Assembly (NCBI RefSeq): GCF_029909975.1 | Contig: NZ_CP094516.1 | Location: forward strand, 62,001-126,000 | Direction of reading: 5' to 3' | DNA from: Bradyrhizobium sp. ISRA430 | GTDB taxonomy: Bacteria > Pseudomonadota > Alphaproteobacteria > Rhizobiales > Xanthobacteraceae | DNA length: 64,000 nt | Shown: one piece after another, positions 43,459 to 62,759 of the stretch | Position numbering within the stretch: position 1 is the stretch's first letter | How the letters are laid out: each line of letters starts with the position of its first letter | Made by a program: the position numbers and the translations under genes | The notes under the pieces: model-generated | Seen by the model: only the letters and a program-made list of their open reading frames with translations | Databases searched by the model: none | What the model was told of the DNA's origin: nothing

Positions 43459-44766
43459 TCAGCTCTCGCCGAACACGCGCTTGAAGATCGTGTCGACGTG
43501 CTTGAGGTGATAGCCGAGGTCGAACTGCTCTTCGATTTCGGCGTCGGTGAGATACTTCTTCACCTCGGCGTCCTTCTTCAGGAGCTGGAGGAAGTCGCCT
43601 TCGCCGCGCCACACCGGCATGGCGTTGCGCTGCACGAGCTTGTAGGCGTCCTCTCGGCTCGCGCCCTTTTGGGTCAAGGCCAAGAGCACGCGCTGCGAAT
43701 GCACGAGGCCGCCGAGGCGGTCGAGGTTCTTCTGCATGTTGGCGGGGTAGACCAGGAGCTTGTCGATCAGGCCGGCAAGGCGCACCAGCGCGAAGTCGAG
43801 CGTGACGGTCGCATCGGGGCCGATCATGCGCTCGGCGGATGAGTGCGAGATGTCGCGCTCGTGCCAGAGCACGACGTTCTCCAAGGCCGGCGTCACATAG
43901 GCCCGCACCATGCGCGAGAGGCCGGTGAGATTCTCCGACAGCACCGGGTTGCGCTTGTGCGGCATCGCGGAGGAGCCCTTCTGTCCTTCGGAGAAGAACT
44001 CTTCGGCCTCCAGCACCTCGGTGCGCTGGAGATGGCGGATTTCCACCGCGAGGCGCTCGACGGAAGAGGCGATCACGCCGAGGGTTGAAAAATACATCGC
44101 ATGGCGGTCGCGCGGGATCACCTGCGTCGAGATCGGCTCCGGCGTCAGGCCCATGGCCTTTGCGACATGCTCTTCGACGCGCGGATCGATCTGCGCGAAG
44201 GTGCCGACGGCGCCGGAGATGGCGCAGGTCGCGACCTCCTTCCGCGCCGCGATCAGGCGCTCCTTGGCGCGCGAGAATTCGGCATAGGCATAAGCGAGCT
44301 TGAGGCCGAAGGTGACCGGCTCGGCATGGATGCCGTGACTGCGGCCGATGGTCGGCGTCATCTTGTGCTCGAAGGCGCGCTTCTTCAGCGCCGCCAGCAC
44401 CTTGTCAAGGTCGGCGAGCAAGAGGTCGGCAGCGCGGGTGAGCTGGACATTGAGGCAGGTGTCGAGCACGTCGGAGGAGGTCATGCCCTGATGCACGAAG
44501 CGTGCCTCGGGGCCGACGATCTCGGCGAGGTGGGTGAGGAAGGCGATGACGTCGTGCTTGGTCTCACGCTCGATCTCGTCGATGCGGGCGACGTCGAAGG
44601 TGGCGTTCTTCGCCTTGTCCCAGACCGTCTTGGCGGCCTCTTTGGGGATCGTCCCGAGTTCGGCCAGTGCGTCCGCCGCATGCGCCTCGATCTCGAACCA
44701 GATCTTGAACCGCGTCTGCGGCTCCCAGATCGAGGCCATTTCCGGGCGGGTATAACGGGGGATCAT
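43459..44766 (-). CDS. purB: Adenylosuccinate lyase
   Basis: A 435-residue enzyme with two purine-pathway steps: SAICAR to AICAR and adenylosuccinate to [78 protein letters not shown] and the fumarase-superfamily signature [19 protein letters not shown] are all present. ATG at 44766 after GGAGCCGTCAG. It lies 24 kb from the other pur genes. Confidence 0.97.
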
Positions 44767-44964
44767 CTGACGGCTCCAGGAAGGTGGGGCGGGGCGTCCC
44801 AAGGAGAACAAGGGGCGCGGCTCCGGCCAAAATGCTTTTTACGCCGCGATTTAGCAGAGCGGGGAGGGCGAAACAAACGGCTGGGACGAGGTAGCAGGGG
44901 ATGACCGGCGGCCATGTGCGAAAGCGGCCAGTCCGGACGTAACGAGCCGGGCCAGAAATTAACT

Positions 44965-45022
44965 GTCAATCACGGATCATTGACTGACAGATATTGAAAT
45001 CTGTCAGCGAGACGTGTATATC
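44965..45022 (+). promoter_or_regulatory. Promoter with overlapping palindromic operator (TetR type)
   Basis: A perfect inverted repeat CTGACAGAT-ATTGAA-ATCTGTCAG (44984-45007) covers the -35 of a good promoter: TTGAAA (44994-44999), 17 bases, TATATC (45017-45022). A second, weaker palindrome GTCAAT-N8-ATTGAC (44965-44984) overlaps its left edge. The first gene downstream is a 33-codon ORF and the second is a TetR regulator, so autorepression is likely. The rest of 44767-45148 shows nothing else. Confidence 0.6.
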
Positions 45023-45148
45023 CGTTTCCGGACGCTCCGATTGGGCGTCCCGTGGCTATCTCCCGGGGGCGCCCGACATCCGAAACATCTGCGGATCGAG
45101 GGACGTAATTGAAGGGGCAGGAGCCGCGGACGAGTGGAGAACAAGAAA

Positions 45149-45250
45149 ATGACGACCGAAATCCTCAATTTCACCGGGACGATTGGGCATTGGCTCAATT
45201 TGCTGGTGGCGCGCCAGATCGCGGCGCAGGCTGCAAAACTGCCTCATTAA
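45149..45250 (+). CDS. Small protein (33 residues) upstream of TetR gene
   Basis: ATG at 45149 with GGAGAACAAG upstream; product MTTEILNFTGTIGHWLNLLV then ARQIAAQAAKLPH. It has an amphipathic, helix-like pattern and sits between the palindromic promoter and the TetR gene, 91 bases before it. Family not recognised. The good ribosome binding site and the position as first gene of the transcript favour a real small gene or a leader peptide. Confidence 0.45.
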   Translation: MTTEILNFTGTIGHWLNLLVARQIAAQAAKLPH

Positions 45251-45341
45251 GGCGAGAGCTTTCCGAAACGACCGGCAGGGGCGCTTCGGAAGCAGCTCCA
45301 TCGCCGGATGAGTGAGCCCTTATCGGGAACATGGTGCTGGC

Positions 45342-45932
45342 ATGAATGAAGCCGTTGTCTTGACGCCGGAGCGGATCCTCGAAGTCACTGAGGATGTGCT
45401 CAGGCGCTACGGACTTGCCAAGGCCACGGTGGTTGACGTTGCCCGTGCTCTCGATGTGAGCCACGGCAGCGTCTACCGGCATTTCCCGAGCAAGGCCTCG
45501 CTGCGCGAAGCCGTTGCAAAACGCTGGCTCGAGCGCATCGACGGACCGCTGCGCCAGATTGCCGAGGACAGCACTGGTCCCGCGCCGGAGCGGCTCGACC
45601 GCTGGCTGCGCACGCTGTTCGCCGCCAAGCGCGAGCGCGTCTGCGACGATCCCGAGATGTTCCAGACCTATCTGACGCTGGCGCGCGAAGCCTGCGCCGC
45701 GGTGAAGTGCCACAAGGACGGGCTGATCGACCAGATGTCGGCGATCCTCGTTGACGGCGTGAAGCAAGGCGTCTTCCGTGTCACCGACACCAAGGCCACC
45801 GCACGCGCGATCTTCGATGCCACCAGCCGCTTCCACCATCCGGCGCATGCCGACGAGTGGAAGGATGCCGATCTGCCGGCACGCGTCGATGCGACGCTGG
45901 CGCTGCTTCTGCGCGGTTTGCAGACCGCTTAG
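45342..45932 (+). CDS. TetR/AcrR-family transcriptional regulator
   Basis: A 196-residue repressor. The DNA-binding domain covers residues 8-55: ILEVTEDVLRRYGLAKATVV, then VARALDVSHGSVYRHFPSKA with the recognition helix. The ligand domain has ATARAIFDATSRFHHPAHAD. ATG at 45342 is chosen; GTG at 45312 is possible. No efflux pump is adjacent. The operator at 44984-45007 is a natural target. Confidence 0.9.
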   Translation: MNEAVVLTPERILEVTEDVLRRYGLAKATVVDVARALDVSHGSVYRHFPSKASLREAVAKRWLERIDGPLRQIAEDSTGPAPERLDRWLRTLFAAKRERVCDDPEMFQTYLTLAREACAAVKCHKDGLIDQMSAILVDGVKQGVFRVTDTKATARAIFDATSRFHHPAHADEWKDADLPARVDATLALLLRGLQTA

Positions 45933-45968
45933 ACCGACGCTCCCATTCCAAAGTTCGTAACGCCTACT

Positions 45969-46274
45969 TCACCCTCTCTCCTTGTGAAGAAGGTTTCCAT
46001 CGCCGTGCGACGGCGAGGGGGCCGCGTGCTTCCGTGCGTGAAGTGCGGCGCCGGTCGATGGCACAACCGACGGGCTTTCCGGGTATACATTGACTGCGAT
46101 TTCGACTGTGTCCTTTGAACGCTTTCGAAGGCGCGAGAATGTTAGCTCCTGATCGAGCATGGGGCAGCGGAAGTGGACAATGGCCGTATCCGGCAAGCGG
46201 CAAAGTTCGTCGATGAGCTCACCTACTGTAATGATCGGGGGACGTGGGACGGCCTTGTGATTAGCCTTACTCAT
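45969..46274 (-). CDS. Hypothetical protein (101 residues)
   Basis: Unrecognised. The N-terminal two thirds look folded: PIITVGELIDELCRLPDTAI, VHFRCPMLDQELTFSRLR, TVEIAVNVYPESP. The last 30 residues (LHARKHAAPSPSHGDGNLLH and beyond) are low-complexity and may be read-through into intergenic sequence. ATG at 46274 has GAAGGAG 8 bases ahead. An EcfG-like promoter lies just upstream, so it may be a stress-response gene. Confidence 0.55.
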   Translation of the reverse strand: MSKANHKAVPRPPIITVGELIDELCRLPDTAIVHFRCPMLDQELTFSRLRKRSKDTVEIAVNVYPESPSVVPSTGAALHARKHAAPSPSHGDGNLLHKERG

Positions 46275-46300
46275 GACATTACTCCTTCGACTCCAGTGCT

Positions 46301-46326
46301 AACCGGAGCTGAACGGTCTCTGTTCC
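46301..46326 (-). promoter_or_regulatory. EcfG-like promoter upstream of the 101-residue hypothetical gene
   Basis: On the minus strand GGAAC (46322-46326), 17 bases, GGTT (46301-46304). The -35 is perfect and the -10 differs from CGTT in one base. The predicted start near 46293 leaves about 20 bases to the ATG, which include the GAAGGAG ribosome binding site. Confidence 0.4.
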
Positions 46327-46403
46327 ATTTCGTATAGCAATCGGATGGGGAAGACAGACTTGAAAAGTTATGATGTCACTCAGAGAATCCGGCAGCCTTG
46401 CTG

Positions 46404-47057
46404 CTAGATCTTCGTCAGCCCGCACGTCGCGGCCAGCCGCACGAGTTGCGCGTCCGTGCGCGCGCCGGTCTTGGCCTTGATCAGATAGTGATAGTTCTGG
46501 ACCGTCTTCACACTGAGATTGAGCTGTGAGGCGATCTGCTCGGTCGTAGCGCCGCCGGCGAACTGACGCAAAATCTCGATTTCCCGTTCACCCAATTGAT
46601 CCAGCACCGAGCCGGTCGGCGCGAGGCTGTCCTCAGCCAGCACATGCGCGATGTCGTCGCTCATGGCGCGCTCGCCGCGGGCAACGCCCCGGATCGCGCT
46701 GACCACTGCGGACGGCTCGCTGCTCTTGGTGACGAAGCCGCTGGCGCCGGCGCTGAAGGCAGCTTTCACCAGCACCGCCTCGTTGTGCATGGTGAAGACC
46801 AGAATGCGCGCACGCGGGCTGCGGGCGCGGATGTTGCGGATCGCCTCCAGCCCGCTCGCGCCGGGCATCGAGATGTCCATCACCACGACGTCGGGATCAT
46901 GCGCCTTGAAGGCGGCATAAGCGTCCGCGGCGTTGTCGGCTTCCGCCACGACACGGAGATCGCCCTGGCTCTCCAGCACGCGCCGATAACCCTGTCGCAC
47001 GATCGGATGGTCGTCGACCAGCAGCACGGAGATGCCTGTTGTCGCAACCTCGGTCAT
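46404..47057 (-). CDS. NarL/FixJ-family response regulator
   Basis: A 217-residue two-domain regulator. The receiver starts ISVLLVDDHPIVRQGYRRVL, with the phospho-acceptor Asp in VVVMDISMPGASGLEA and the Lys in GFVTKSSEP. The LuxR-type helix-turn-helix is LGEREIEILRQFAGGATTEQ, then IASQLNLSVKTVQNYHY. ATG at 47057. It is encoded 7 bases after the histidine kinase gene and is surely its partner. The target genes are unknown. Confidence 0.93.
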   Translation of the reverse strand: MTEVATTGISVLLVDDHPIVRQGYRRVLESQGDLRVVAEADNAADAYAAFKAHDPDVVVMDISMPGASGLEAIRNIRARSPRARILVFTMHNEAVLVKAAFSAGASGFVTKSSEPSAVVSAIRGVARGERAMSDDIAHVLAEDSLAPTGSVLDQLGEREIEILRQFAGGATTEQIASQLNLSVKTVQNYHYLIKAKTGARTDAQLVRLAATCGLTKI

Positions 47058-47064
47058 GCCGGCC

Positions 47065-48435
47065 TCACGCCGCGAGCGGGATCGTGGCGGCCACGCTGAG
47101 GCCGCGCGTTGCGGGGAGGATCGACAGCGAGCCGCCGGCCGCCGCAACGCGCTCGCGAATGCCGGTGAGGCCAAAGCCCGCGGAGCGCGCCACCTGCTCG
47201 GCATCGCCGCCGCCGTCATCTTCCACCCGGATCACGAGCGCATCGTCTGCTCCCGAACGGCGCTCGATCCGCAACGAGATCTCGCGCGCCGCGCTGTGGC
47301 GCAGCGCGTTGGTCAGGCATTCCTGGGCGACGCGATAGGCGGTGGTTGCGGCCGGGCCGCTGATGTCGGCGAGGTCGCCCTTGAGATCGAGCTGGATCGT
47401 CGGCTGCGTCGCGCTCTGCGAGCGCCAGCGATCGACGAGATTGACGAGGCTCGCCTCCAGCCCGAGCTCCTCGGGCAGGGGATTGCGCAGACGCTTCAGC
47501 GTATCGCGCAGCGAGGCCATGATGCGGTGGGTGGCCTGCGAGATCATGCGCGCATCCTGCGCAATGCCGTTGTCCTTGCTCTCCTTTGCGCTCGCCGTCT
47601 CGATCGTGTTGGCGAAGGCCAGGATGGCCGACAGGTTCTGCCCGAATTCGTCGTGCAGCTCGCGGGCCAGCGCGCGACGTTCGTCGTCGCGGATCTCGAT
47701 CAGGCGCCTTGTCAGGGCTGCGCGCTGCTCGGTCGCCTCTTCCAGCCGGCCGCCGAGCTCGCCCACGGCCTTGCCGATCATTGCGAGCTCCATCGAGCGG
47801 AAACGTGGCAATGGCGTGCGATACTGGCCGCGCGCCATGCGCTGCAGCGCGGTGACGATCGCGCGCGCCGGCGCCAGCGTGTGCGCGATCGCCAGCGAGG
47901 CGAGCAGCGCGATCGCCGCCGACATCAACAGCGCGACGTCAATCACGTTGAGGATGTACTCCCAGGCGAGCGAGATCGCGGCCGCTTCATCCGGGGTCGC
48001 AACAACCGTGCCGGCCGCGGCTGCGCGGGGACTAACGGGCCGCACCACCTCGGCATGGCTGCCGAGGAACGTGGGCACGATCGCTGCAAACCATCGCGGC
48101 GGCGCCTTGCCGATGCCCTGGTTCTGGCCACAGAGCGGCTTTTCGAACGCGGCCGCCGGCTGGAACTCGACGCAGACGCCAGGCGAGATCAGCTTCATCG
48201 TCTCCAGCGTGCGCCAATCGGGAACCGGCAGGAGGTGCTCGCGCATTCTGCTGCTGCGCAACAACAGCTCGCGCCAGTACAGTGCCTCCAACGCTTTCGC
48301 GACGCGCTGCGCGGATGTCGCGGTGGCGCGGTCGACGCTTCGATAGGCATCGAACGTCGCCCACACCGTCGCTGCCCCGAGGCAGAGCGCGACGATGAGA
48401 AGCAGGCGGGCGACGAGCTGGAGCACGAGACGCAT
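47065..48435 (-). CDS. NarL-type sensor histidine kinase (HisKA_3)
   Basis: A 456-residue membrane sensor. TM1 lies at residues 5-26 (LQLVARLLLIVALCLGAA), a periplasmic domain of about 130 residues with three Cys follows, and TM2 is VIDVALLMSAAIALLASLAI, then a HAMP segment. The dimerisation/phosphorylation helix is RALARELHDEFGQNLSAIL, with the His in LHDE, and the ATPase domain has RVEDDGGGDAEQ and GFGLTGIRERV. Signal unknown. ATG at 48435; upstream codons are rejected. Confidence 0.92.
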   Translation of the reverse strand: MRLVLQLVARLLLIVALCLGAATVWATFDAYRSVDRATATSAQRVAKALEALYWRELLLRSSRMREHLLPVPDWRTLETMKLISPGVCVEFQPAAAFEKPLCGQNQGIGKAPPRWFAAIVPTFLGSHAEVVRPVSPRAAAAGTVVATPDEAAAISLAWEYILNVIDVALLMSAAIALLASLAIAHTLAPARAIVTALQRMARGQYRTPLPRFRSMELAMIGKAVGELGGRLEEATEQRAALTRRLIEIRDDERRALARELHDEFGQNLSAILAFANTIETASAKESKDNGIAQDARMISQATHRIMASLRDTLKRLRNPLPEELGLEASLVNLVDRWRSQSATQPTIQLDLKGDLADISGPAATTAYRVAQECLTNALRHSAAREISLRIERRSGADDALVIRVEDDGGGDAEQVARSAGFGLTGIRERVAAAGGSLSILPATRGLSVAATIPLAA

Positions 48436-48623
48436 GCGATCACCCCCGACGTTTGCTAAGCTCACAGTAACAACGCCGCCGCGCCTTGCCAATTGCAGGG
48501 AAGGGCAGGGATGAGGCTCGGGCAAATTTCCCAAGCCAGTTTGGGCATGGCTCTTTGGACCGGGGGCGGTAATTTTGATCTAATCCGCGACGAAAGATCG
48601 TTGCAGGCCGGGAGCAATGCAGC

Positions 48624-49385
48624 ATGAGCTCGATCACGATTGGACCGACCGCACGGCAACCGGCCGACCCGTCGGAGCGGAGCGCGCTCCTGTTCTGGAT
48701 GATCTTCACCGGCCTTTCCGTCTTCGCCGTCGTCCTGTTGTGGCGGTTCGGGCTGATCCATCTGATGCTGACCTCGGACCGGACCTACATTTCGAGCGTC
48801 ATCGCGGTGCTCTACGTCGCCACCTGCGGTCACTGCTTCCTGCGGACGCGGGCGATCGCGCGTGAGGGGGCGGCGGCGCGGCGCTGCCGCACGGTGCTGG
48901 CGGCGGCCGGTGGCAGCAAGGCGCTCGAGGCCGGCGGGGCCTCGCTGCCACGCGGGCTGGTGCGGGATCACATCGAAAGCCTGGTGACGAAGGCCGCCGC
49001 GCAGGACTACCGGCCGGTCGACCAGACCCTGCTGCTGCGCACCCTGGCCGACCGCCTGCGCGGCTCCAATGGTTTCGGCGCCTTTGTCTCCGACACGCTG
49101 ATGAAGCTCGGCCTGCTCGGCACCATCATCGGCTTCATCATCATGCTGGCGCCGATCGCCGGCCTGGACGCCGCCGACAAGGTCGCGATGCGGTCTTCGA
49201 TGGGGCTGATGAGCGACGGCATGGCGGTTGCCATGTACACGACGCTTGCGGGCCTCGTCGGCTCGATCTTGGTCCGCATCCAATATTACATGCTCGATGC
49301 GGCGACCCAGCGGGTGTTCTCGGATGCCGTGGTGCTGACCGAGACCTATGTCACGCCGGCTCTGGAACGCCGTCATGCTGGATGA
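48624..49385 (+). CDS. MotA/TolQ/ExbB-family ion channel-like protein
   Basis: A 253-residue four-helix membrane protein. Predicted helices: 21-42, 55-74, 158-181 and 199-218. The third and fourth carry the family pattern: LMKLGLLGTIIGFIIMLAP and SDGMAVAMYTTLAGLVGSIL, with the paired Thr typical of TolQ/ExbB/MotA. A cytoplasmic loop of about 80 residues lies between helices 2 and 3. ATG follows GGGAGCAATGCAGC. It overlaps the next gene by 11 bases. No standard MotB, ExbD or TolR lies nearby; see the next gene. Confidence 0.82.
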   Translation: MSSITIGPTARQPADPSERSALLFWMIFTGLSVFAVVLLWRFGLIHLMLTSDRTYISSVIAVLYVATCGHCFLRTRAIAREGAAARRCRTVLAAAGGSKALEAGGASLPRGLVRDHIESLVTKAAAQDYRPVDQTLLLRTLADRLRGSNGFGAFVSDTLMKLGLLGTIIGFIIMLAPIAGLDAADKVAMRSSMGLMSDGMAVAMYTTLAGLVGSILVRIQYYMLDAATQRVFSDAVVLTETYVTPALERRHAG

Positions 49386-50046
49386 TTTCGGTCTCTATCC
49401 GCGCGAGGAGCCGTTCGATCCGCTGGGCGTGATGCTGTTCAAGGCGCTCCAGGTGATCGCCTTCCTGTTCTTCCTCGCCCTGCTCGCGGTCTCCCCGGAT
49501 TCCAAAGACGGCAAGATCGACTCCAAAGCCGAGTTCATGATCACGCTGGACTGGCCGGACAATCACCCCGACGATCTCGACCTGTTCGTGCAGGATCCCG
49601 CTGGCAACATCGCCTGGTACCGGCACCGCGAGGCCGGCTTCCTCACGCTCGACCGCGATGACCGTGGCGGCGCCAACGATTTCATCATGGTCAACGGCAA
49701 GAAGATCGCGTCGCCGATCCGCGAGGAGATCGTCACGGTGCGCGGCATCGTCGCCGGCGAATACACCGTCAACGTCTCCCACTTCGTGGCGACGACCGGC
49801 GAGCCTGTCCAAGCGAACGTGAAGGTGCAAAAGCTTAATCCGACCGCGCAGGTGATCTTCGACAACAAATTCACGCTCGATCACACCGGCGACGAGAAGA
49901 CGGCGGTGCGGTTCCGGCTCGATGCCGAGGGCAAGGTGGTCAACGTCGACCAGCGGCCGAAATCGCTGCTGGAGACGTTCCGCAGCAGTTGGCGCAACGG
50001 CGGCGACGTCGATCCGAAGACCGGTGTGAGGATACGCCGTGAGTGA
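49375..50046 (+). CDS. Single-pass membrane protein with YfaP/DUF2135-like domain
   Basis: 223 residues. A short cytoplasmic start with Asp15 (EEPFDPLG) leads into one TM helix (residues 18-40, VMLFKALQVIAFLFFLALL), then an extracytoplasmic beta-rich domain: FMITLDWPDNHPDDLDLFVQ, DPAGNIAWYRHREAGF, RGGANDFIMVNG, VAGEYTVNVSHF. This resembles the YfaP/DUF2135 type of calcium-binding-like beta domain. Topology (short inside end, acidic residue, one TM, large outside domain) is that of ExbD/MotB partners. Translationally coupled to the channel gene. Function inferred only. Confidence 0.65.
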   Translation: MLDDFGLYPREEPFDPLGVMLFKALQVIAFLFFLALLAVSPDSKDGKIDSKAEFMITLDWPDNHPDDLDLFVQDPAGNIAWYRHREAGFLTLDRDDRGGANDFIMVNGKKIASPIREEIVTVRGIVAGEYTVNVSHFVATTGEPVQANVKVQKLNPTAQVIFDNKFTLDHTGDEKTAVRFRLDAEGKVVNVDQRPKSLLETFRSSWRNGGDVDPKTGVRIRRE

Positions 50047-50644
50047 TCTGCAACTGGTCATCCTGACGCTGTCGGTCGCCTACGCCGTGATCGGCGCGCT
50101 GCTGCTGGTCGTGCTGGTCTATGCGCGCCTGCACTGGTCGCTGAAGGCGGTCGCAGTGGTCGTGACCAGCGTGTTCTATGTCGTCAGCTTCGGGGGCATG
50201 CGCGGGCTGCTCGGCTGGGCCAGCGCCGAGCGGATGCCGACCTCCTTCAAGCTGCTCCAGGCGCGCATCGTCGAGCCGCATTCGCTCGAGGGCGACCCCG
50301 GCTCGATCTATTTCTGGGTCGAGGAGCTCGACGAGGACAATCGCCCGAGCGGCATCCCACGGGCCTTCCGCGTGCCCTACAACGATAGGCTGGCCGACAA
50401 GACCCACACGGCGCAGAACGAGATCGCGGCAGGGCATCCGCAAGGCGGCCGCGCCGCCGATTTCGGCGGTGGCGAGGGCAGCTTGATCGACATGGTCCGG
50501 GAATATGTGACGCCCAAGACCATCCTCGAGACCAGCGGGGGCGATTCTTCGACCGGCGAATTCAATGCTCCGCCCGCCGGTGCGCAGGGCGCCGTGTTCA
50601 CACCGCTGCCGCCGCCCCGGATGCCGCCGAAGGACGAGCAATAG
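50039..50644 (+). CDS. Two-pass membrane protein, unknown function
   Basis: 201 residues. TM1 about 5-28 (LVILTLSVAYAVIGALLLVV) and TM2 about 35-57, then a soluble region with SIYFWVEELDEDNRPSGIPR and FRVPYNDRLADKTHTAQNE, and a Pro/Gly-rich end. GTG start overlapping the previous gene by 8 bases. Not recognised as a named family; it seems a regular member of this gene run. Confidence 0.65.
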   Translation: MSDLQLVILTLSVAYAVIGALLLVVLVYARLHWSLKAVAVVVTSVFYVVSFGGMRGLLGWASAERMPTSFKLLQARIVEPHSLEGDPGSIYFWVEELDEDNRPSGIPRAFRVPYNDRLADKTHTAQNEIAAGHPQGGRAADFGGGEGSLIDMVREYVTPKTILETSGGDSSTGEFNAPPAGAQGAVFTPLPPPRMPPKDEQ

Positions 50645-50764
50645 GCTCTCCACCGCTGCGACAGCAGGGCGCGCTGGAAAGCAGCCCCGCGCTGGCGCAT
50701 CTTGTTGATGTCCCTCAAATTGGCTTTATCGGCTTCCAGATAGCCTTTCGAGGGTGGAGGGTGC

Positions 50765-51505
50765 GTGCTCCTAGCTGTCTTCTCGGATATCCACGGCAAC
50801 CGGCAGGCTTTCGATGCCTGCCTGAAGGCCGCGCGGGCGCGCGGCGCCGAGCGGATTGTGCTGCTCGGCGATCTCGTCGGCTATGGCGCCGACCCCGAAT
50901 GGGTGGTGGATACCGCGATGGAGCTGGTCGCCCATGGCGCCATCGCGGTGCGCGGCAATCACGACCAGGCAGTGAATTCGTCGGCCGAGACCATGAATGC
51001 CGCGGCGCAGATCGCGATCGAATGGACGCGGGGGCGGCTCGACACCGCGCAGCGCCGGTTCCTCGCTGAGCTGCCGATGCTCGTTGAGGACGGCGACCGT
51101 CTGTTCGTACACTCGGAAGCCTCGAGTCCCAAGCGCTGGAACTATATCCGCTCGACGGCGGACGCCGCCAAGAGCCTGATATCGACGCCCGCGCACGTCA
51201 CCTTCTGCGGCCATATCCACCGGCCCGCGCTCTATTCGATGTCGGTGACGGCGAAGATGACGAGCCTCGTGCCAAAGACCGACGTCTCCGTGCCGCTGCT
51301 GCGCGGGCGGCAATGGCTCGCCGTGCTCGGCGCCGTCGGCCAGCCGCGCGACGGCGATCCGTCGGCGGCCTTCGTATTGTTCGACACGGTCTCGTGCGAG
51401 ATCACCTATTGCCGCGCGCCCTATGACATCGCGAGCGCGGCGAACCGAATCCGCGAAAACGGCCTGCCGCCCTGGCTGGCCGACCGCCTGTCGGAAGGAC
51501 GCTGA
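50765..51505 (+). CDS. Calcineurin-like metallophosphoesterase
   Basis: 246 residues with all phosphoesterase motifs in order: FSDIHGNRQAF (D-x-H), VLLGDLVGYGADPEW (GD), AVRGNHDQAVN (GNHD), and TFCGHIHRPALY (GHxH). Closest in look to the small YfcE/PrpE-like bacterial phosphatases. GTG start at 50765 after GGTGGAGGGTGC. It lies 5 bases before the kinase gene, so it may dephosphorylate what that kinase modifies; nucleotide or phosphodiester substrates remain possible. Confidence 0.88.
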   Translation: MLLAVFSDIHGNRQAFDACLKAARARGAERIVLLGDLVGYGADPEWVVDTAMELVAHGAIAVRGNHDQAVNSSAETMNAAAQIAIEWTRGRLDTAQRRFLAELPMLVEDGDRLFVHSEASSPKRWNYIRSTADAAKSLISTPAHVTFCGHIHRPALYSMSVTAKMTSLVPKTDVSVPLLRGRQWLAVLGAVGQPRDGDPSAAFVLFDTVSCEITYCRAPYDIASAANRIRENGLPPWLADRLSEGR

Positions 51506-51510
51506 CGGCG

Positions 51511-52950
51511 ATGCCGAAACCTCTGGTCAAGCCCGGCGCGGAGATCGACGGCTACACCATCGGCGAGGGCGTCCATGCCGGCGGCATGGCGACGCTGTGG
51601 ACCGTCACTCATCCCGGCATCGACGTGCCGCTGCTGATGAAGATCCCGCGGGTGTCCGAGGGCGAGGACCCCGCGGCGATCGTCTCCTTCGAGATGGAGA
51701 TGATGATCCTGCCGAGGCTTGCGGGACGCCACGTGCCCACGTGTTTCGGCACCGGCGATTTCGCCCACCAGGCCTATGTCGTCATCGAGCGTATTCCGGG
51801 GACCACGCTTTACAAGCGGCTGCCCGACCTGCCGCTGCCCTACGACGAGGCGCGGCTGCTCGTTGCGAAAATCGCGACCGCGCTCGCCGACCTGCACCGG
51901 CAGAACGTGATCCATCACGACGTCAAGCCGAGCAGCATCATGTTCCGCGACAGTGGCGAGGCGGTGTTGATCGACTACGGCCTGTCGCACCACAATCATC
52001 TGCCGGACCTGTTGCAGGAGGAGTTCCGCCTGCCTTACGGCACCGCTCCCTACATGGCGCCGGAACGGCTCTTGGGCGTGCGCGACGATCCGCGCAGTGA
52101 TCTGTTTTCGCTCGGCGTGCTGCTCTATTTCTTCACCACCGGCGAGCGGCCGTTCGGCGAGGGCGAGACGTTGCGCGCGATGCGGCGCCGGCTGTGGCGC
52201 GATCCGCATCCGCCGCGCAAGCTGCGCCCCGACTATCCGCCCTGGCTCCAGGAGGTGGTGCTGCGCTGTCTGGAGATCGAACCGGTCTGGCGCTATCCGA
52301 CCGCGGCCCAGCTTGCCTTCGACCTTGCCCATCCCGACCAGATCAAGCTCACCGCGCGCTCGGAGCGGTTGAAGCGCGATCCCCTCGGCGTCGCCTGGCG
52401 GCGCCGCTTCAACCAGGGCGTCACGCAGCCGCGCGCGAAAGCCGATGTCGCGGCGCAGATTGCATCGAGCCCGATCCTCGCGGTCGCGCTCGACACCGCG
52501 GAAGGCGCGCCCGAGCTGAACGAAGCACTGCGTGTCACGACCGAACGCATTCTCGCGACGCTCCCGTCGGCGCGGCTTGCCTGCGTCAATGTGCTGAAAC
52601 TCAACCGCATCGCCATCGACCGGACACTGGACGAGCAGGGCTCAAACAAGCATATCGATCGCCTGGTGGCGCTCAGACACTGGGCCACTCCGCTCAAGCT
52701 GGATGAGAGCCGGCTATCGGTTCACGTGCTGGAGGCCGTCGATCCCGCCGCGGCGCTTTTGGAGTTCGCCGAGGTCAACCAGGTCGATCATGTCATCATC
52801 GGCGCGCGGCAGGGCTCGTTCAGGCGCACGCTGCTCGGCAGCGTCTCGGCCAAGGTAGCTGCGGAAGCGACCTGTACCGTCACCGTGGTGCGGCCGCCGC
52901 GGATGGCTGCGGATGCGGCAGAGGCGGATGTGGGCGAGGCGGCGGGATAG
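51511..52950 (+). CDS. Serine/threonine protein kinase fused to a universal stress protein domain
   Basis: 479 residues. A Hanks-type kinase domain (about 12-280) has Lys44 in LLMKIPRV, the catalytic loop HHDVKPSSIMF with Asp137 and Lys139, DYG (Asp155) instead of DFG, and YMAPERL. Ser142 stands where most active kinases have the metal-binding Asn. A UspA-like domain (about 320-470) ends with VDHVIIGARQGSFRRTLLGS and VSAKVAAEATCTVTVVRPP, the ATP-binding glycine pattern. No transmembrane segment. Last gene of a five-gene run. Confidence 0.87.
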   Translation: MPKPLVKPGAEIDGYTIGEGVHAGGMATLWTVTHPGIDVPLLMKIPRVSEGEDPAAIVSFEMEMMILPRLAGRHVPTCFGTGDFAHQAYVVIERIPGTTLYKRLPDLPLPYDEARLLVAKIATALADLHRQNVIHHDVKPSSIMFRDSGEAVLIDYGLSHHNHLPDLLQEEFRLPYGTAPYMAPERLLGVRDDPRSDLFSLGVLLYFFTTGERPFGEGETLRAMRRRLWRDPHPPRKLRPDYPPWLQEVVLRCLEIEPVWRYPTAAQLAFDLAHPDQIKLTARSERLKRDPLGVAWRRRFNQGVTQPRAKADVAAQIASSPILAVALDTAEGAPELNEALRVTTERILATLPSARLACVNVLKLNRIAIDRTLDEQGSNKHIDRLVALRHWATPLKLDESRLSVHVLEAVDPAAALLEFAEVNQVDHVIIGARQGSFRRTLLGSVSAKVAAEATCTVTVVRPPRMAADAAEADVGEAAG

Positions 52951-52970
52951 CGCTTCGCCCACAGGCTGGG

Positions 52971-53162
52971 TCAGGCCGGGTGGCCCGCGTGAGGGGCGCG
53001 CTTGCGGCGGATGGGCCAGGAGAAGTGCGGACCGGCTTCGCTATGATCTGCGCTGCCGCCGAAGTACTGGATGATCTCGCGGCAGGGCTCGCAATTGAAG
53101 AGGCTGCGCGAAGCGGTCGCCTTGGTCATTTCCTTCAGGCAGTTCGGGCAGTGCGGTTGCAT
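52971..53162 (-). CDS. Small zinc-ribbon-like protein
   Basis: 63 residues. MQPHCPNCLKEMTKATASRS and LFNCEPCREIIQYFG give two Cys pairs (CPNC and CEPC) that could bind one zinc. The tail is basic and His-rich. It begins 3 bases after the stop of the tiny membrane protein gene, so they form a two-gene unit. Function unknown. Confidence 0.62.
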   Translation of the reverse strand: MQPHCPNCLKEMTKATASRSLFNCEPCREIIQYFGGSADHSEAGPHFSWPIRRKRAPHAGHPA

Positions 53163-53165
53163 CAG

Positions 53166-53294
53166 TCAGTCCAAAAAAGTTCGATGCCGGATGCTGCGTG
53201 CGGCCTTCACCGGCCCGGCCGATGGGCCAAAAACGACAAATGCACTAAAACCAAGCCACAACGCCACGCCAGTCCATACCAGGGTTGTCGTCAT
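53166..53294 (-). CDS. Tiny single-pass membrane protein
   Basis: 42 residues with one helix: MTTTLVWTGVALWLGFSAFV then VFGPSAGPVKAAR and a basic end. ATG at 53294 with GGCGGGAGCACATC ahead. Paired with the zinc-ribbon gene after a 3-base gap. Family not recognised; the clean ribosome binding site and the membrane pattern support a real gene. Confidence 0.5.
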   Translation of the reverse strand: MTTTLVWTGVALWLGFSAFVVFGPSAGPVKAARSIRHRTFLD

Positions 53295-53455
53295 GATGTG
53301 CTCCCGCCAAACAGGCAAGACCCACTTGAAGTGATTTGTGCGAATCAGGGAAGTCCGGAGGAGTACGGACTTAGGTTGTAATTTTAAGGATTGCGCGCTG
53401 CATCGCGGCTGGAGCCGCGGCTCTCTTGCATCGCGCATGTCGAGCTTGATGCGGC

Positions 53456-54157
53456 TCAGATCGCTTCGCCGCGCGCTCCGAGCGCGGCGTTACGGATCGC
53501 GGCGATGTTGGTCTTGTAGGCTTCCTGCGTGCCGCCCCTGAACACCGAGGTGCCGGCGACGAACGCGTTGGCGCCGGCGGCGGCCAGCGCGCCGGCGACG
53601 TCGGGGCCGACACCGCCATCAACCTCGATGTCGATCGGGCGGCCCGCGGTCATCGCGCGGATATCGCGGATCTTGCCGATCGCGGAGGGGATGAAGGCCT
53701 GGCCGCCGAAGCCGGGATTGACCGACATCACCAGCACGAGGTCGATCAGGTCGAGGACGTATTCGAGCGCGCTGATCGGTGTGCCCGGGTTGAGCGAGAC
53801 GCCGGCCTTCTTGCCGAGCGCGCGGATCGCCTGCAGGGAGCGGTGCAGATGCGGACCTGCCTCGGCATGCACGGTGATGTGGTCGCAGCCCGCTTTCGCG
53901 AACGCTTCGAGATAGGGGTCGCAGGGCGAGATCATCAGATGCGCGTCGAAGATCTTCTTCGTATGCGGGCGCATCGCCTTGATGATGTCGGGGCCGTAGG
54001 AAATGTTGGGCACGAAATGCCCGTCCATCACGTCGAGATGGATCCAGTCCGCACCGGCCGCGTCCACCGCGCGGACCTCTTCGCCGAGCCTGGAGAAATC
54101 CGAGGCCAGGATGGAGGGCGCGATCGCCAGGGGGCGGGGGCTGAGGGCTTGGGTCAT
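53456..54157 (-). CDS. rpe: Ribulose-phosphate 3-epimerase
   Basis: A 233-residue TIM-barrel enzyme interconverting ribulose-5-phosphate and xylulose-5-phosphate. [39 protein letters not shown] (metal His/Asp), [34 protein letters not shown] and [11 protein letters not shown] (second catalytic Asp) are all present. ATG at 54157. It stands alone and is not in a cbb operon. Confidence 0.96.
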
Positions 54158-54341
54158 GGGCGTTGTTTCCCGTGGCGGCCGAAGGAGGTGAGGCCTCGCC
54201 TAACATGGGCATTTGCGCCGGGCAATGCAGGGCAGGCGTCGTTCCTGTGGGCGGAAATTTCTGCCCTCTGCGGCATGAATTGCCGATGTTCCCGGGGCTC
54301 CGAGGGCGCGGCCAAGCCGGATTTCATTGAGCTTTTCGTGC

Positions 54342-54357
54342 TGGCACGGTGCTTGCT
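54342..54357 (+). promoter_or_regulatory. Consensus sigma-54 (RpoN) promoter
   Basis: TGGCACGGTGCTTGCT matches TGGCACG-N4-TTGCW at every fixed position with the right GG-to-GC spacing. Predicted transcription start near 54369, 43 bases before the ATG of the EF-hand gene. An enhancer-binding protein site would be expected upstream toward rpe; none was recognised. Confidence 0.7.
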
Positions 54358-54411
54358 GACACAAGCGTAAGAACATTGGCCGCGGCATGCCGCATCGGTT
54401 GGAGTAGTGCA

Positions 54412-55161
54412 ATGTTGTTCGCCCTCGGTGCCGTCTCGACTGCGCTCGATGCGATCCAGTCGCTGACGAGCTCGAAATCCTCGTCGGCGCAGAAGACGGG
54501 CTTTTCGCAAGGCGCGACCAACCCGTTTGCGATCGACAGCGGCAACGGCACGAGCAGCACGGCGACCTCGTCAGTGAACTCGGGCAATTGTCCGCAGATC
54601 GCGCCGGAGACGATGAGCGCGCTGCTTGCTGCGCAAGGCCAGTCGTCGGACGGCACGAGCACGTCCGTCAGCTCGACCTCGTCGATGAGCAGGCAGGATG
54701 CGCTGAAGGATCTGTTCTCGCAGATCGATGCCGATGGCGACGGCAGTATCACCAAGTCGGAGTTCGAGAACGCACTGGGCGCGGGTGGTACCAATTTGGC
54801 GCAGGCCGATGACGTGTTCTCGAAGCTCGATGCAAATTCCGATGGCAACGTCAGCCTCGACGAGATGTCGAAGGCGCTGAAGAGCGGCCATCACGGCCAC
54901 CATCACGCCCAGGGCGCGAGCAGCTCGGGCGATGCGTCCGGCAGCTCGCAGTCGGGCGGTTCGACCTCGACCACGACGACCAACGCCGATGGCTCGACCA
55001 CCACCACGGTCACCTATGCCGACGGTTTCAAGGTGTCGACGACGGTTCCGGGCGTGTCGGGCGCCGGCAACGCAGCCTATAACTGGTTCGAGCAGATGAT
55101 GCAGCGCCAGGGGCAGGCTTCGTCCGCGACCGCATCTTCATCGATGTCGATGAGCGTGTGA
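54412..55161 (+). CDS. EF-hand calcium-binding protein, XopAW-like
   Basis: 249 residues, Ser/Thr/Gly-rich. Two canonical EF-hand loops: DADGDGSITKSEF (from Asp106) and DANSDGNVSLDEM (from Asp140), followed by a His-rich stretch (GHHGHHHAQG) and a Ser/Thr repeat. The start MLFALGAVSTALDAIQSLTS lacks a classic signal peptide. The build is that of the XopAW-like calcium-binding type III effector family widespread in Bradyrhizobium, though secretion cannot be shown from sequence. ATG at 54412 after GGAGTAGTGC. Controlled by the sigma-54 promoter upstream. Confidence 0.8.
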   Translation: MLFALGAVSTALDAIQSLTSSKSSSAQKTGFSQGATNPFAIDSGNGTSSTATSSVNSGNCPQIAPETMSALLAAQGQSSDGTSTSVSSTSSMSRQDALKDLFSQIDADGDGSITKSEFENALGAGGTNLAQADDVFSKLDANSDGNVSLDEMSKALKSGHHGHHHAQGASSSGDASGSSQSGGSTSTTTTNADGSTTTTVTYADGFKVSTTVPGVSGAGNAAYNWFEQMMQRQGQASSATASSSMSMSV

Positions 55162-55188
55162 GCCTGGGCGTCTTCCGCCAATGACGGT

Positions 55189-55292
55189 GTCATGCCCCGC
55201 GCAGGCGGGGCATCCAGTACGCCGCGGCCTCTCGATTTCACACGACCGTCTCTCGCATACTGGATCGCCCGGTCTTCGCCGGGCGATGACGC
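55189..55292. repeat. Intergenic repeat (GTCATGCCCCGC family)
   Basis: Begins GTCATGCCCCGCGCAGGCGG, contains GCATCCAGTACGCCGCGG and ATACTGGATCGCCCGG, and ends CGGGCGATGACGCG. Same family as 34754-34872. It separates the convergent EF-hand and peptidase genes. Confidence 0.75.
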
Positions 55293-55320
55293 GTGACGCG
55301 TGGGGAGAGGGGTGTCCCTA

Positions 55321-56319
55321 CTATGCGCCGAACTTATCCCTCCACGCCGGCAGCGCGTCCGCGAACGGCAGCGCGGTGGCACTGTGGACGCCGCGTGCGA
55401 TCGCGCGCGCGACCACGTTGGCAGCGACCATGCCGAGCTCGGTGAGCTCGACCAGCGGCTCGATCGGTTTCTCGCAGGTGGCCGCCGCAAACAGCACGTC
55501 GCCGTCGAGCGGGGCGTGGACGGGATAGATGGCGCGGGCAAATCCGGTCTGCGCGATCATCGCGAGCCGCTTGGCCTGCGCCTTGGTTAGAACAGCATCG
55601 GTGACGACGAGGCCGATCGTGGTGTTCTCGCGCGCGCTTGCGGCCGGGCCGCCCTTGATACGCATCGCCAGCATGTCCGGTGTGAACCCGGCCGGCAAGC
55701 CGCGCCCGCCGAACTCGCCGTTCTCCTCGAACGGCGAGGCCCAGAACCACGGCCCGTCACCAACTGTGACGCTGCCGACCGCATTGACCACCATGATCGC
55801 GGCGACCTTGACGCCGTTCGCCGTCATGGCCGATGCCGAGCCGAGCCCACCCTTGAAGGTCGCCGTGGTGGCGCCGAGGCCGGCGCCGACGCTGCCGAGA
55901 GCGAAGTCGGTGCCGGCAGAGGCGGCCGCGGCGTAGCCGAGATCGCGATAGGGCGAAAAGCGGCCCCAGGACTTGTCGCCGCCATTGAGCAGATCGAACA
56001 CGATCGCGCCGGGCACGATGGGGATCACGGCTTCTCGGATCCTGAACCCGCGGCCCTGTTCGGCGAGCCAGGCCTGTACGCCGCCGCCGGCATCGAGCCC
56101 GAAGGCGGAGCCGCCCGACAGTGCGATCGCGTCGACGCGCTCGACCGTGTTGGCGACATCGAGCAGCGAGACCTCGCGCGTGCCGGGTCCTCCGCCGCGG
56201 ACGTCGATCGCCGCCACCGCCGGGGAATCGAAGATGATCGCGGTCGTGCCGGAGGCGAGCTTGGCGTCGTCGGCGTGACCGACGCGAACGCCGGCAATAT
56301 CGGTGAGAAGGTTTTTCAA
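55321..56319 (-). CDS. P1-family peptidase (DmpA/BapA-like N-terminal nucleophile aminopeptidase)
   Basis: 332 residues. LKNLLTDIAGVRVGHADDAK is the family start, then GGGPGTREVSLLD, ALSGGSAFGLDAGGGVQAWL and VVNAVGSVTVGDGP, near the expected self-cleavage site that frees the nucleophile. These enzymes remove N-terminal D- or beta-amino acids; several are called only P1 family. The start used is TTG at 56319 with AGGAG 7 bases upstream; GTG at 56328 is the alternative. Confidence 0.86.
   Translation of the reverse strand: MKNLLTDIAGVRVGHADDAKLASGTTAIIFDSPAVAAIDVRGGGPGTREVSLLDVANTVERVDAIALSGGSAFGLDAGGGVQAWLAEQGRGFRIREAVIPIVPGAIVFDLLNGGDKSWGRFSPYRDLGYAAAASAGTDFALGSVGAGLGATTATFKGGLGSASAMTANGVKVAAIMVVNAVGSVTVGDGPWFWASPFEENGEFGGRGLPAGFTPDMLAMRIKGGPAASARENTTIGLVVTDAVLTKAQAKRLAMIAQTGFARAIYPVHAPLDGDVLFAAATCEKPIEPLVELTELGMVAANVVARAIARGVHSATALPFADALPAWRDKFGA

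Positions 56320-61933: not shown

Positions 61934-62759
<826 letters not shown>

Follow-up and report, generated by a model that had tools for sequence, protein, structure and literature searches.

An apparently undescribed three-gene relative of the MotA/TolQ/ExbB stator family, conserved in Bradyrhizobium chromosomes and in phages of rhizobia

The closest described systems to the locus treated here are the pairs TolQ-TolR and ExbB-ExbD, MotA-MotB and PomA-PomB, and the Zorya proteins ZorA-ZorB. Sections of PMC9389320 describe 5:2 motors, and sections of PMC12505986 divide the homologues of MotAB into a flagellar group and a group of generic ion transporters, to which TolQ-TolR and ExbB-ExbD belong, and mention varied appended domains as well as Zorya; by word search the latter paper leaves Bradyrhizobium unmentioned and uses 'phage' only with Zorya. 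Word searches of PMC10460002, PMC10783043 and PMC12429752 gave no match, passages of PMC5537653 held nothing relevant, and no description of a phage-encoded stator-type trio was found in the open-access literature, surveyed mainly at listing level. Here, we describe three adjacent genes, A, B and C, from Bradyrhizobium sp. ISRA430 (NCBI RefSeq assembly GCF_029909975.1, contig NZ_CP094516.1), in a stretch of 64,000 nucleotides (positions 62,001 to 126,000 of the forward strand; hereafter the window, whose own numbering is used below). The genes are conserved and together make an apparently undescribed three-part relative of stator-family systems that both chromosomes and phages carry, and we favor, with moderate confidence, the reading that their products form one inner-membrane 5:2 stator-type ion-driven machine that has C as its third subunit and acts in the envelope. 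The three genes are:

48624..49385, + strand: A, MotA/TolQ/ExbB-type ring or channel subunit of 253 amino acids with a small cytoplasmic domain (Pfam, hydropathy, profile matches)
49375..50046, + strand: B, single-pass axle-like partner of 223 amino acids with a DUF2135/YfaP-like outer domain (hydropathy, hhalign, gene adjacency)
50039..50644, + strand: C, two-pass membrane protein of 201 amino acids, third member of the trio (hydropathy, hhalign of bacterial versus phage profiles)

Protein A matches Pfam MotA_ExbB (PF01618; E 1.3e-8, 35.1 bits against a gathering cut-off of 22.9), and a PF01618 family search across the genome recovers it again. By hydropathy, A has four transmembrane (TM) segments, B one and C two; among 29 aligned A proteins the count is four in 17, three in 8, five in 2 and two in 2. 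These results uphold the proposal of an earlier note on this DNA, made from the sequence alone, that a MotA/ExbB-type protein is encoded here beside an unusual single-pass partner. Compared with solved chains, the A profile finds 8vvn best (3.2e-8; recorded as a MotA/TolQ/ExbB-domain protein, which we take to be ZorA), then TolQ (9.2e-6), MotA (9.8e-5), the ZorA chain 8qyh (0.0064) and, weakly, ExbB (0.031).

B has nothing above the Pfam cut-off, DUF2135 not being among its matches and the best being a marginal PPC (E 0.036), and B profiles gave nothing reliable against the PDB. Profile-profile comparison by hhalign, with a DUF2135 profile built from 8 of 15 DUF2135 loci, gave 95% and a score of 55.6, against at most 20.1 for 20 column-shuffled controls and 11.4 for a C control, and the phage-type B profile reached 91%. 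The YfaP/DUF2135-like outer domain read earlier from the sequence thus holds as a distant relation: B lies below the Pfam threshold of that family and, as a difference from it, carries a TM helix tied to a MotA-like gene. Family searches with DUF2135 (PF09906) found it in 0 of 41 genomes of the bacterial family, our own included, and in 11 of 150 genomes of the phylum, our own not among these. For C, no family exceeded the Pfam cut-off and its profile found nothing in the PDB; its two ends probably both lie outside, as judged by eye from the positive-inside rule.

Set against the described pairs, the trio resembles TolQ-TolR and ExbB-ExbD in the MotA_ExbB family of A, in a PFxD-type Asp where the TM helix begins in many B relatives and in the A-B order, but differs in its four-TM A, a B without an ExbD domain, the presence of C, an Asp displaced in the Bradyrhizobium clade and phage-borne copies. 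MotA-MotB and PomA-PomB also combine a four-TM A with a single-pass B bearing an acidic residue, whereas B here has no OmpA-like or MotB_plug match, A has only a small cytoplasmic domain and C is added; the same genome has separate MotA-like and MotB genes. The likeness to Zorya lies in the 8qyh match of the A profile and in PADLOC, which among the five window genes scanned (the trio and two genes behind it) gave weak ZorA matches for A only (best E 1.4e-6) and none for B or C. By the ZorA and ZorB models, membership in Zorya was rejected, the best ZorA match reaching 16.7 bits against an NCBIfam cut-off of 500 and B having no ZorB match; A is also shorter than the ZorA models that it matched (420-1063 positions), and phages themselves carry the trio.

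The three membrane genes are neighbors elsewhere too, the conserved gene order that the earlier note had named as a check: in every one of 80 Bradyrhizobium-type loci (kept of 172 found; spacings in this set include the 3-base stop codon), the three stand side by side on one strand, B being preceded by A and followed by C. Among 132 loci with a B match by tblastn, which overlap with the 80 and partly with each other, all three proteins were matched in 129, A and B in one (L127) and B alone in two (L126, L128); in 127 of the 129 the genes share one strand with gaps below 200 bases, and C lies about 0.3 kb off in L120 and L122. When longer regions were taken, L126 (as L147) proved to have both an A-like and a C-like gene next to B, and L127 (as L148) a C-like one. 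Of the 30 class-level loci kept, our own included, every one has A by B, with 640 bp between them in one case, and 27 have C. B is present in 33 of 60 relatives, in 31 of 36 genomes within the genus (own genome included), in 31 of 297 genomes of the order, in 16 of 398 of the phylum by single-sequence search, and, by profile, in 61 of the 385 genomes of the class, where six matches were weaker than 1e-25. Protein searches with B returned 2432, at least 5509 (8000 candidates scored) and 2471 matches; among the matches listed none had a Pfam domain, and their names were hypothetical or uncharacterised. One query, the B protein of L116, had no match in 72,556 plasmid records. By eye, four distant bacterial loci (L139, L142, L143 and L145) encode, directly upstream of A, a Sel1-like repeat protein that contains a membrane segment. 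A contig labelled Frankia sp. RB7 (L094) holds the Bradyrhizobium locus, 90-92% identical and flanked by the same genes, and that record is probably mislabelled or contaminated.

Phages carry all three parts. B was found in the records of Rhizobium phage 16-3, AP-16-3, NV1.1.1, RHph_X2_25 and RHph_TM3_3_14B and in 153-171 kb and 68 kb Rhizobium phages, Pootjesviridae included; with five queries, all B matches among 50,697 phage records were Rhizobium or Sinorhizobium phages, and the eight phage regions opened have A- and C-type proteins near B. In phage 16-3, A, B and C are p038, p040 and p042, with small open reading frames (ORFs) between them. Scans of IMG/VR for B yielded 6 loci at first, then 80 (of 85) and 41. 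Profile hidden Markov models placed both A and C no farther than 1.5 kb from B in 116 of the 134 viral loci, a set that includes repeats of one contig, and in 96 of the 106 that remain when B proteins at least 90% identical are removed; of the other ten, six lack A and four lack C, three of the ten being at contig ends. A lies within 60 bp of B for 82 of 100 viral A genes. Bacterial and phage profiles, the latter including some rows from genome contigs, align by hhalign at 99.7% for A, 99.9% for B and 99.1% for C. Phage A ORFs span 129-297 amino acids (p038 about 138), and few MotA-type subunits would, to our knowledge, be as reduced as these proteins. In phage RHph_TM3_3_14B an annotated homing-endonuclease gene (L163:6240-6998) sits between A and B, and the split trio persists.

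The genes around the phage copies are of several kinds. An integrase gene lies 6-7 kb from the trio in the cultured phages 16-3 and RHph_TM3_3_14B, in some phages the distance to a lysozyme or integrase gene is 5-7 kb, an endolysin gene lies two genes from a distant B (L147), and in the large (153-156 kb) phages the trio stands amid replication genes. Sampled contigs have phage genes nearby for terminase (L267), head closure (L268), RIIA (L265) and a virion structural protein (L264); among four proteins scanned in L272 there was no gene of such kinds. A cluster of trypsin-like proteases occurs near 29 of the 106 non-redundant viral trios (27 upstream, 2 downstream), and among its members are the genes of 16-3, RHph_X2_25, RHph_TM3_3_14B and RHph_N3_13 with a protease or trypsin-like annotation. 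That phages keep the trio, with lysozyme, integrase or replication genes nearby, argues for a job at the envelope or membrane potential in infection or lysogeny. The viral trio of L265 directly follows a gene (L265:3170-5215) that belongs to the RIIA lysis-inhibitor family (phrog_612, E 3.9e-129); as a recurrent neighbor rIIA was discarded, since tblastn with the L265 protein gave no second copy among all collected loci.

In a B tree of 111 rows (proteins shorter than 150 amino acids or at least 80% identical to a kept row dropped), a group that contains 33 phage rows encloses a single clade (100/99) of 17 type-I bacterial rows. A second tree with class-level loci added (127 rows; 12 of 139 left out, 6 as near-copies and 6 as long or unstable) places 29 type-I bacterial rows in one clade (98, quick search) among phage rows, and another bacterial set, type II, is intermixed with phages. 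The fewest changes between bacterial and viral labels are 6 in the first tree and 8 in the second, at least 4 being forced in each. This nesting suggests that the bacterial type-I trio was captured from phages; because both trees are rooted by midpoint, the bootstrap of the first had not settled and viral and bacterial sampling is uneven, capture is suggested only and the direction of transfer is not settled. The same nesting, the proteases, the integrase genes of the cultured phages and the replication genes around the trio in 153-156 kb phages would fit a different account, possible though rather unlikely, in which the trio is a phage-type envelope module that acts on its host cell, infected or lysogenic, by altering the periplasm or the energised inner membrane (for example, in superinfection exclusion or in holding the proton motive force), the bacterial copy being captured and perhaps a Zorya-like envelope guard. 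However, the chromosomal copy is near-core in the genus, PADLOC sees ZorA in A alone and only weakly, and the unsettled root bears on this account as well.

The machine that we favor needs an acidic residue on the helix of B, and the relevant codons are:

49417..49419, + strand: Asp15 of B, the displaced carboxylate (sequence, alignment columns)
49429..49431, + strand: Val19 of B, aligned with the Asp of homologues that bear an ExbD/TolR-like PFxD motif (alignment)
49441..49443, + strand: Lys23 of B (alignment of 467 sequences)

Among 467 non-identical B sequences, a set weighted toward Bradyrhizobium by how it was gathered, Asp is found at position 15 only in 275, at 15 and 19 in 61 and at 19 only in 131 (Asp19 in 192 altogether), and no sequence lacks both. 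For 49 sequences below 70% identity the corresponding numbers are 5, 14, 30 and 0. Lys23 accompanies Val or Leu at 19 in 275 of 275 sequences, all of which keep Asp15, and accompanies Asp19 in 0 of 192. Of 134 viral B rows, repeats included, 128 have Asp19, none has Asp15 and none joins Lys23 to Asp19; the alignment-displaced Asp of L288 and L295 and the truncated L256 account for three of the other six. The genome's own ExbD reads TPFIDVML, so sharing the PFxD motif of many B relatives, its TolR-like protein reads TPMVDVML, and its MotB proteins have Asp at a similar place. Asp19 in relatives, in viral rows and in the own ExbD and TolR-like proteins therefore marks 19 as the canonical site and Asp15 as a displaced one. 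Asp15 had been singled out in the earlier note as the acidic residue of an ExbD/MotB-like partner: its conservation in the Bradyrhizobium clade stands, while its equivalence to the Asp of ExbD/TolR does not, that place being position 19, which is Val here. Residues 15, 19 and 23 share one face of the helix, judged by spacing. On the 127-row tree a single change suffices for the Val19/Lys23 switch, and Asp15, in 23 rows that are all bacterial, requires at least 4 changes. Replacement of the canonical Asp by Val with Lys23, in one change, could also mean that the complex of Bradyrhizobium no longer conducts ions and, with its stator fold retained, serves passively as a sensor or scaffold. We hold this to be unlikely, as Asp15 is kept in every Val/Leu19 sequence and relatives with both Asp15 and Asp19 exist, which fits a hand-over of function and not a loss.

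Family and topology lead us to expect that A and B assemble into a ring and an axle driven by ions. A would form the ring and the ion path, two B helices would form the axle, and the axle carboxylate would bind the ion; ion flow would turn or rock B against A and so move the DUF2135-like domain of B in the periplasm, with C, which accompanies A and B almost everywhere, as a dedicated third subunit that may receive or gate this motion. In the Bradyrhizobium clade the carboxylate would have moved one turn toward the cytoplasm (D19 to D15), with V19 and K23 present instead, and this shift means that ion coupling is probably altered.

Several results weigh against such a machine. Protein A is only modestly related to the TolQ-, ExbB- and two MotA-like proteins of its own genome (hhalign 65, 47, 32 and 5%; all named from their sequences and neighbors). 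B was rejected as a member of ExbD/TolR, for it has no PF02472 match and the PF02472 genes of the genome are two others, and equally as a member of MotB, having no MotB_plug (PF13677) or OmpA-like match while the genome search returns two other genes. At the canonical place B has Val19 instead of Asp, its Asp15 lying one helical turn before, and Gly occupies this place in the B proteins of three viral contigs (L201, L235, L253), possibly non-conducting variants; the missing canonical Asp of this clade together with those Gly residues implies that conduction may not be universal. We also know of no outer-membrane partner for A, B and C. Such a partner, in the outer membrane or cell wall, would be pulled by the B domain for uptake or envelope constriction if the trio were an energiser of the TonB/Tol kind, for which the closeness of A to the TolQ- and ExbB-like proteins of its own genome and the ExbD-like D19 motif of B relatives speak. 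This is a distinctly improbable reading, given that no TonB- or TolA-like partner is known to us (neighbors in 20 longer regions were clustered, not annotated) and that phages would have no evident need for uptake.

Beyond the trio, the surrounding genes and the gap behind C are:

50645..50764, + strand: gap of 120 bp between C and the metallophosphoesterase gene, with a conserved promoter-like core (alignment of 68 sequences)
50765..51505, + strand: metallophosphoesterase (MPP), a neighbor outside the trio (Pfam; variable distance from C)
51511..52950, + strand: Ser/Thr kinase-Usp fusion (STK), which accompanies MPP rather than the trio (Pfam; short MPP-STK spacing)
47065..48534, - strand: histidine kinase divergent from A, start codon uncertain, a possible regulator (HisKA_3/HATPase_c)
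46404..47048, - strand: response regulator with a LuxR-type helix-turn-helix, adjoining the histidine kinase (Pfam)

All five ORFs that the earlier note had placed in one run were recovered where it put them, with the 11-base overlap of A and B, the 8-base overlap of B and C and the 5-base MPP-STK spacing; its account left out the 120 bases between C and MPP. Its suggestion of a single five-gene machine under the control of reversible phosphorylation agrees with their common strand and with a pair 113-134 bp behind C in 67 loci, and is nevertheless very improbable. MPP (Metallophos_2 in Pfam) was found in 76 of the 80 Bradyrhizobium-type loci but lies 305-1960 bp from C in 9 of them, while its spacing to STK (protein kinase and Usp in Pfam) stays at 3-25, stop codon included, in 76 of 76. 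In the remaining 4 the pair was unmatched, some of them being at contig ends and L099 not. Beside the more distant trios L107-L128 and L130-L132 no phosphatase or kinase was matched in 1.5-kb flanks, and none was seen in 20 longer regions, where ORF picking missed some genes, even A, B or C. The gap, near constant in length in the 67 loci, has a mean identity of 77% to the window in the 68 aligned sequences, and its conserved core suggests a promoter that would give the MPP-STK pair its own transcription start. On the variable distance, the distant trios with no pair matched beside them and the conserved core, a five-gene unit was rejected; a pair so variable or missing leaves the phosphorylation switch unsupported, and in the machine favored here the phosphatase and kinase would be neighbors and no switch.

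No known RNA family was found in 44000-56000 (0 Rfam matches at gathering scores). The kinase domain of STK matches the PD-T4-6 defence-kinase models of PADLOC (best E 2e-49), perhaps only as a general Ser/Thr kinase. The histidine kinase was found in 76 of the 80 loci, in each divergent and 69-230 bp from A, stop codon included, and a similar histidine kinase and response regulator pair precedes the trio in L136.

More broadly, and tentatively, an unnamed three-part stator-type machine driven by ion-motive force may circulate between alphaproteobacterial chromosomes and tailed phages, of which temperate and large ones would encode a complete minimal copy and with it remodel or protect the energised envelope of their host; the bacterial type-I copies would then stem from one capture, and the Asp would have been handed over through a two-Asp intermediate in the Bradyrhizobium line. 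If the machine is as proposed, phages encode their own stator-type motors. The passage from D19 to D15, with its two-Asp relatives, offers a natural experiment on how far such motors are bound to one ion site, and the trio is a defined gene set for deletion in model rhizobia and in phage 16-3.

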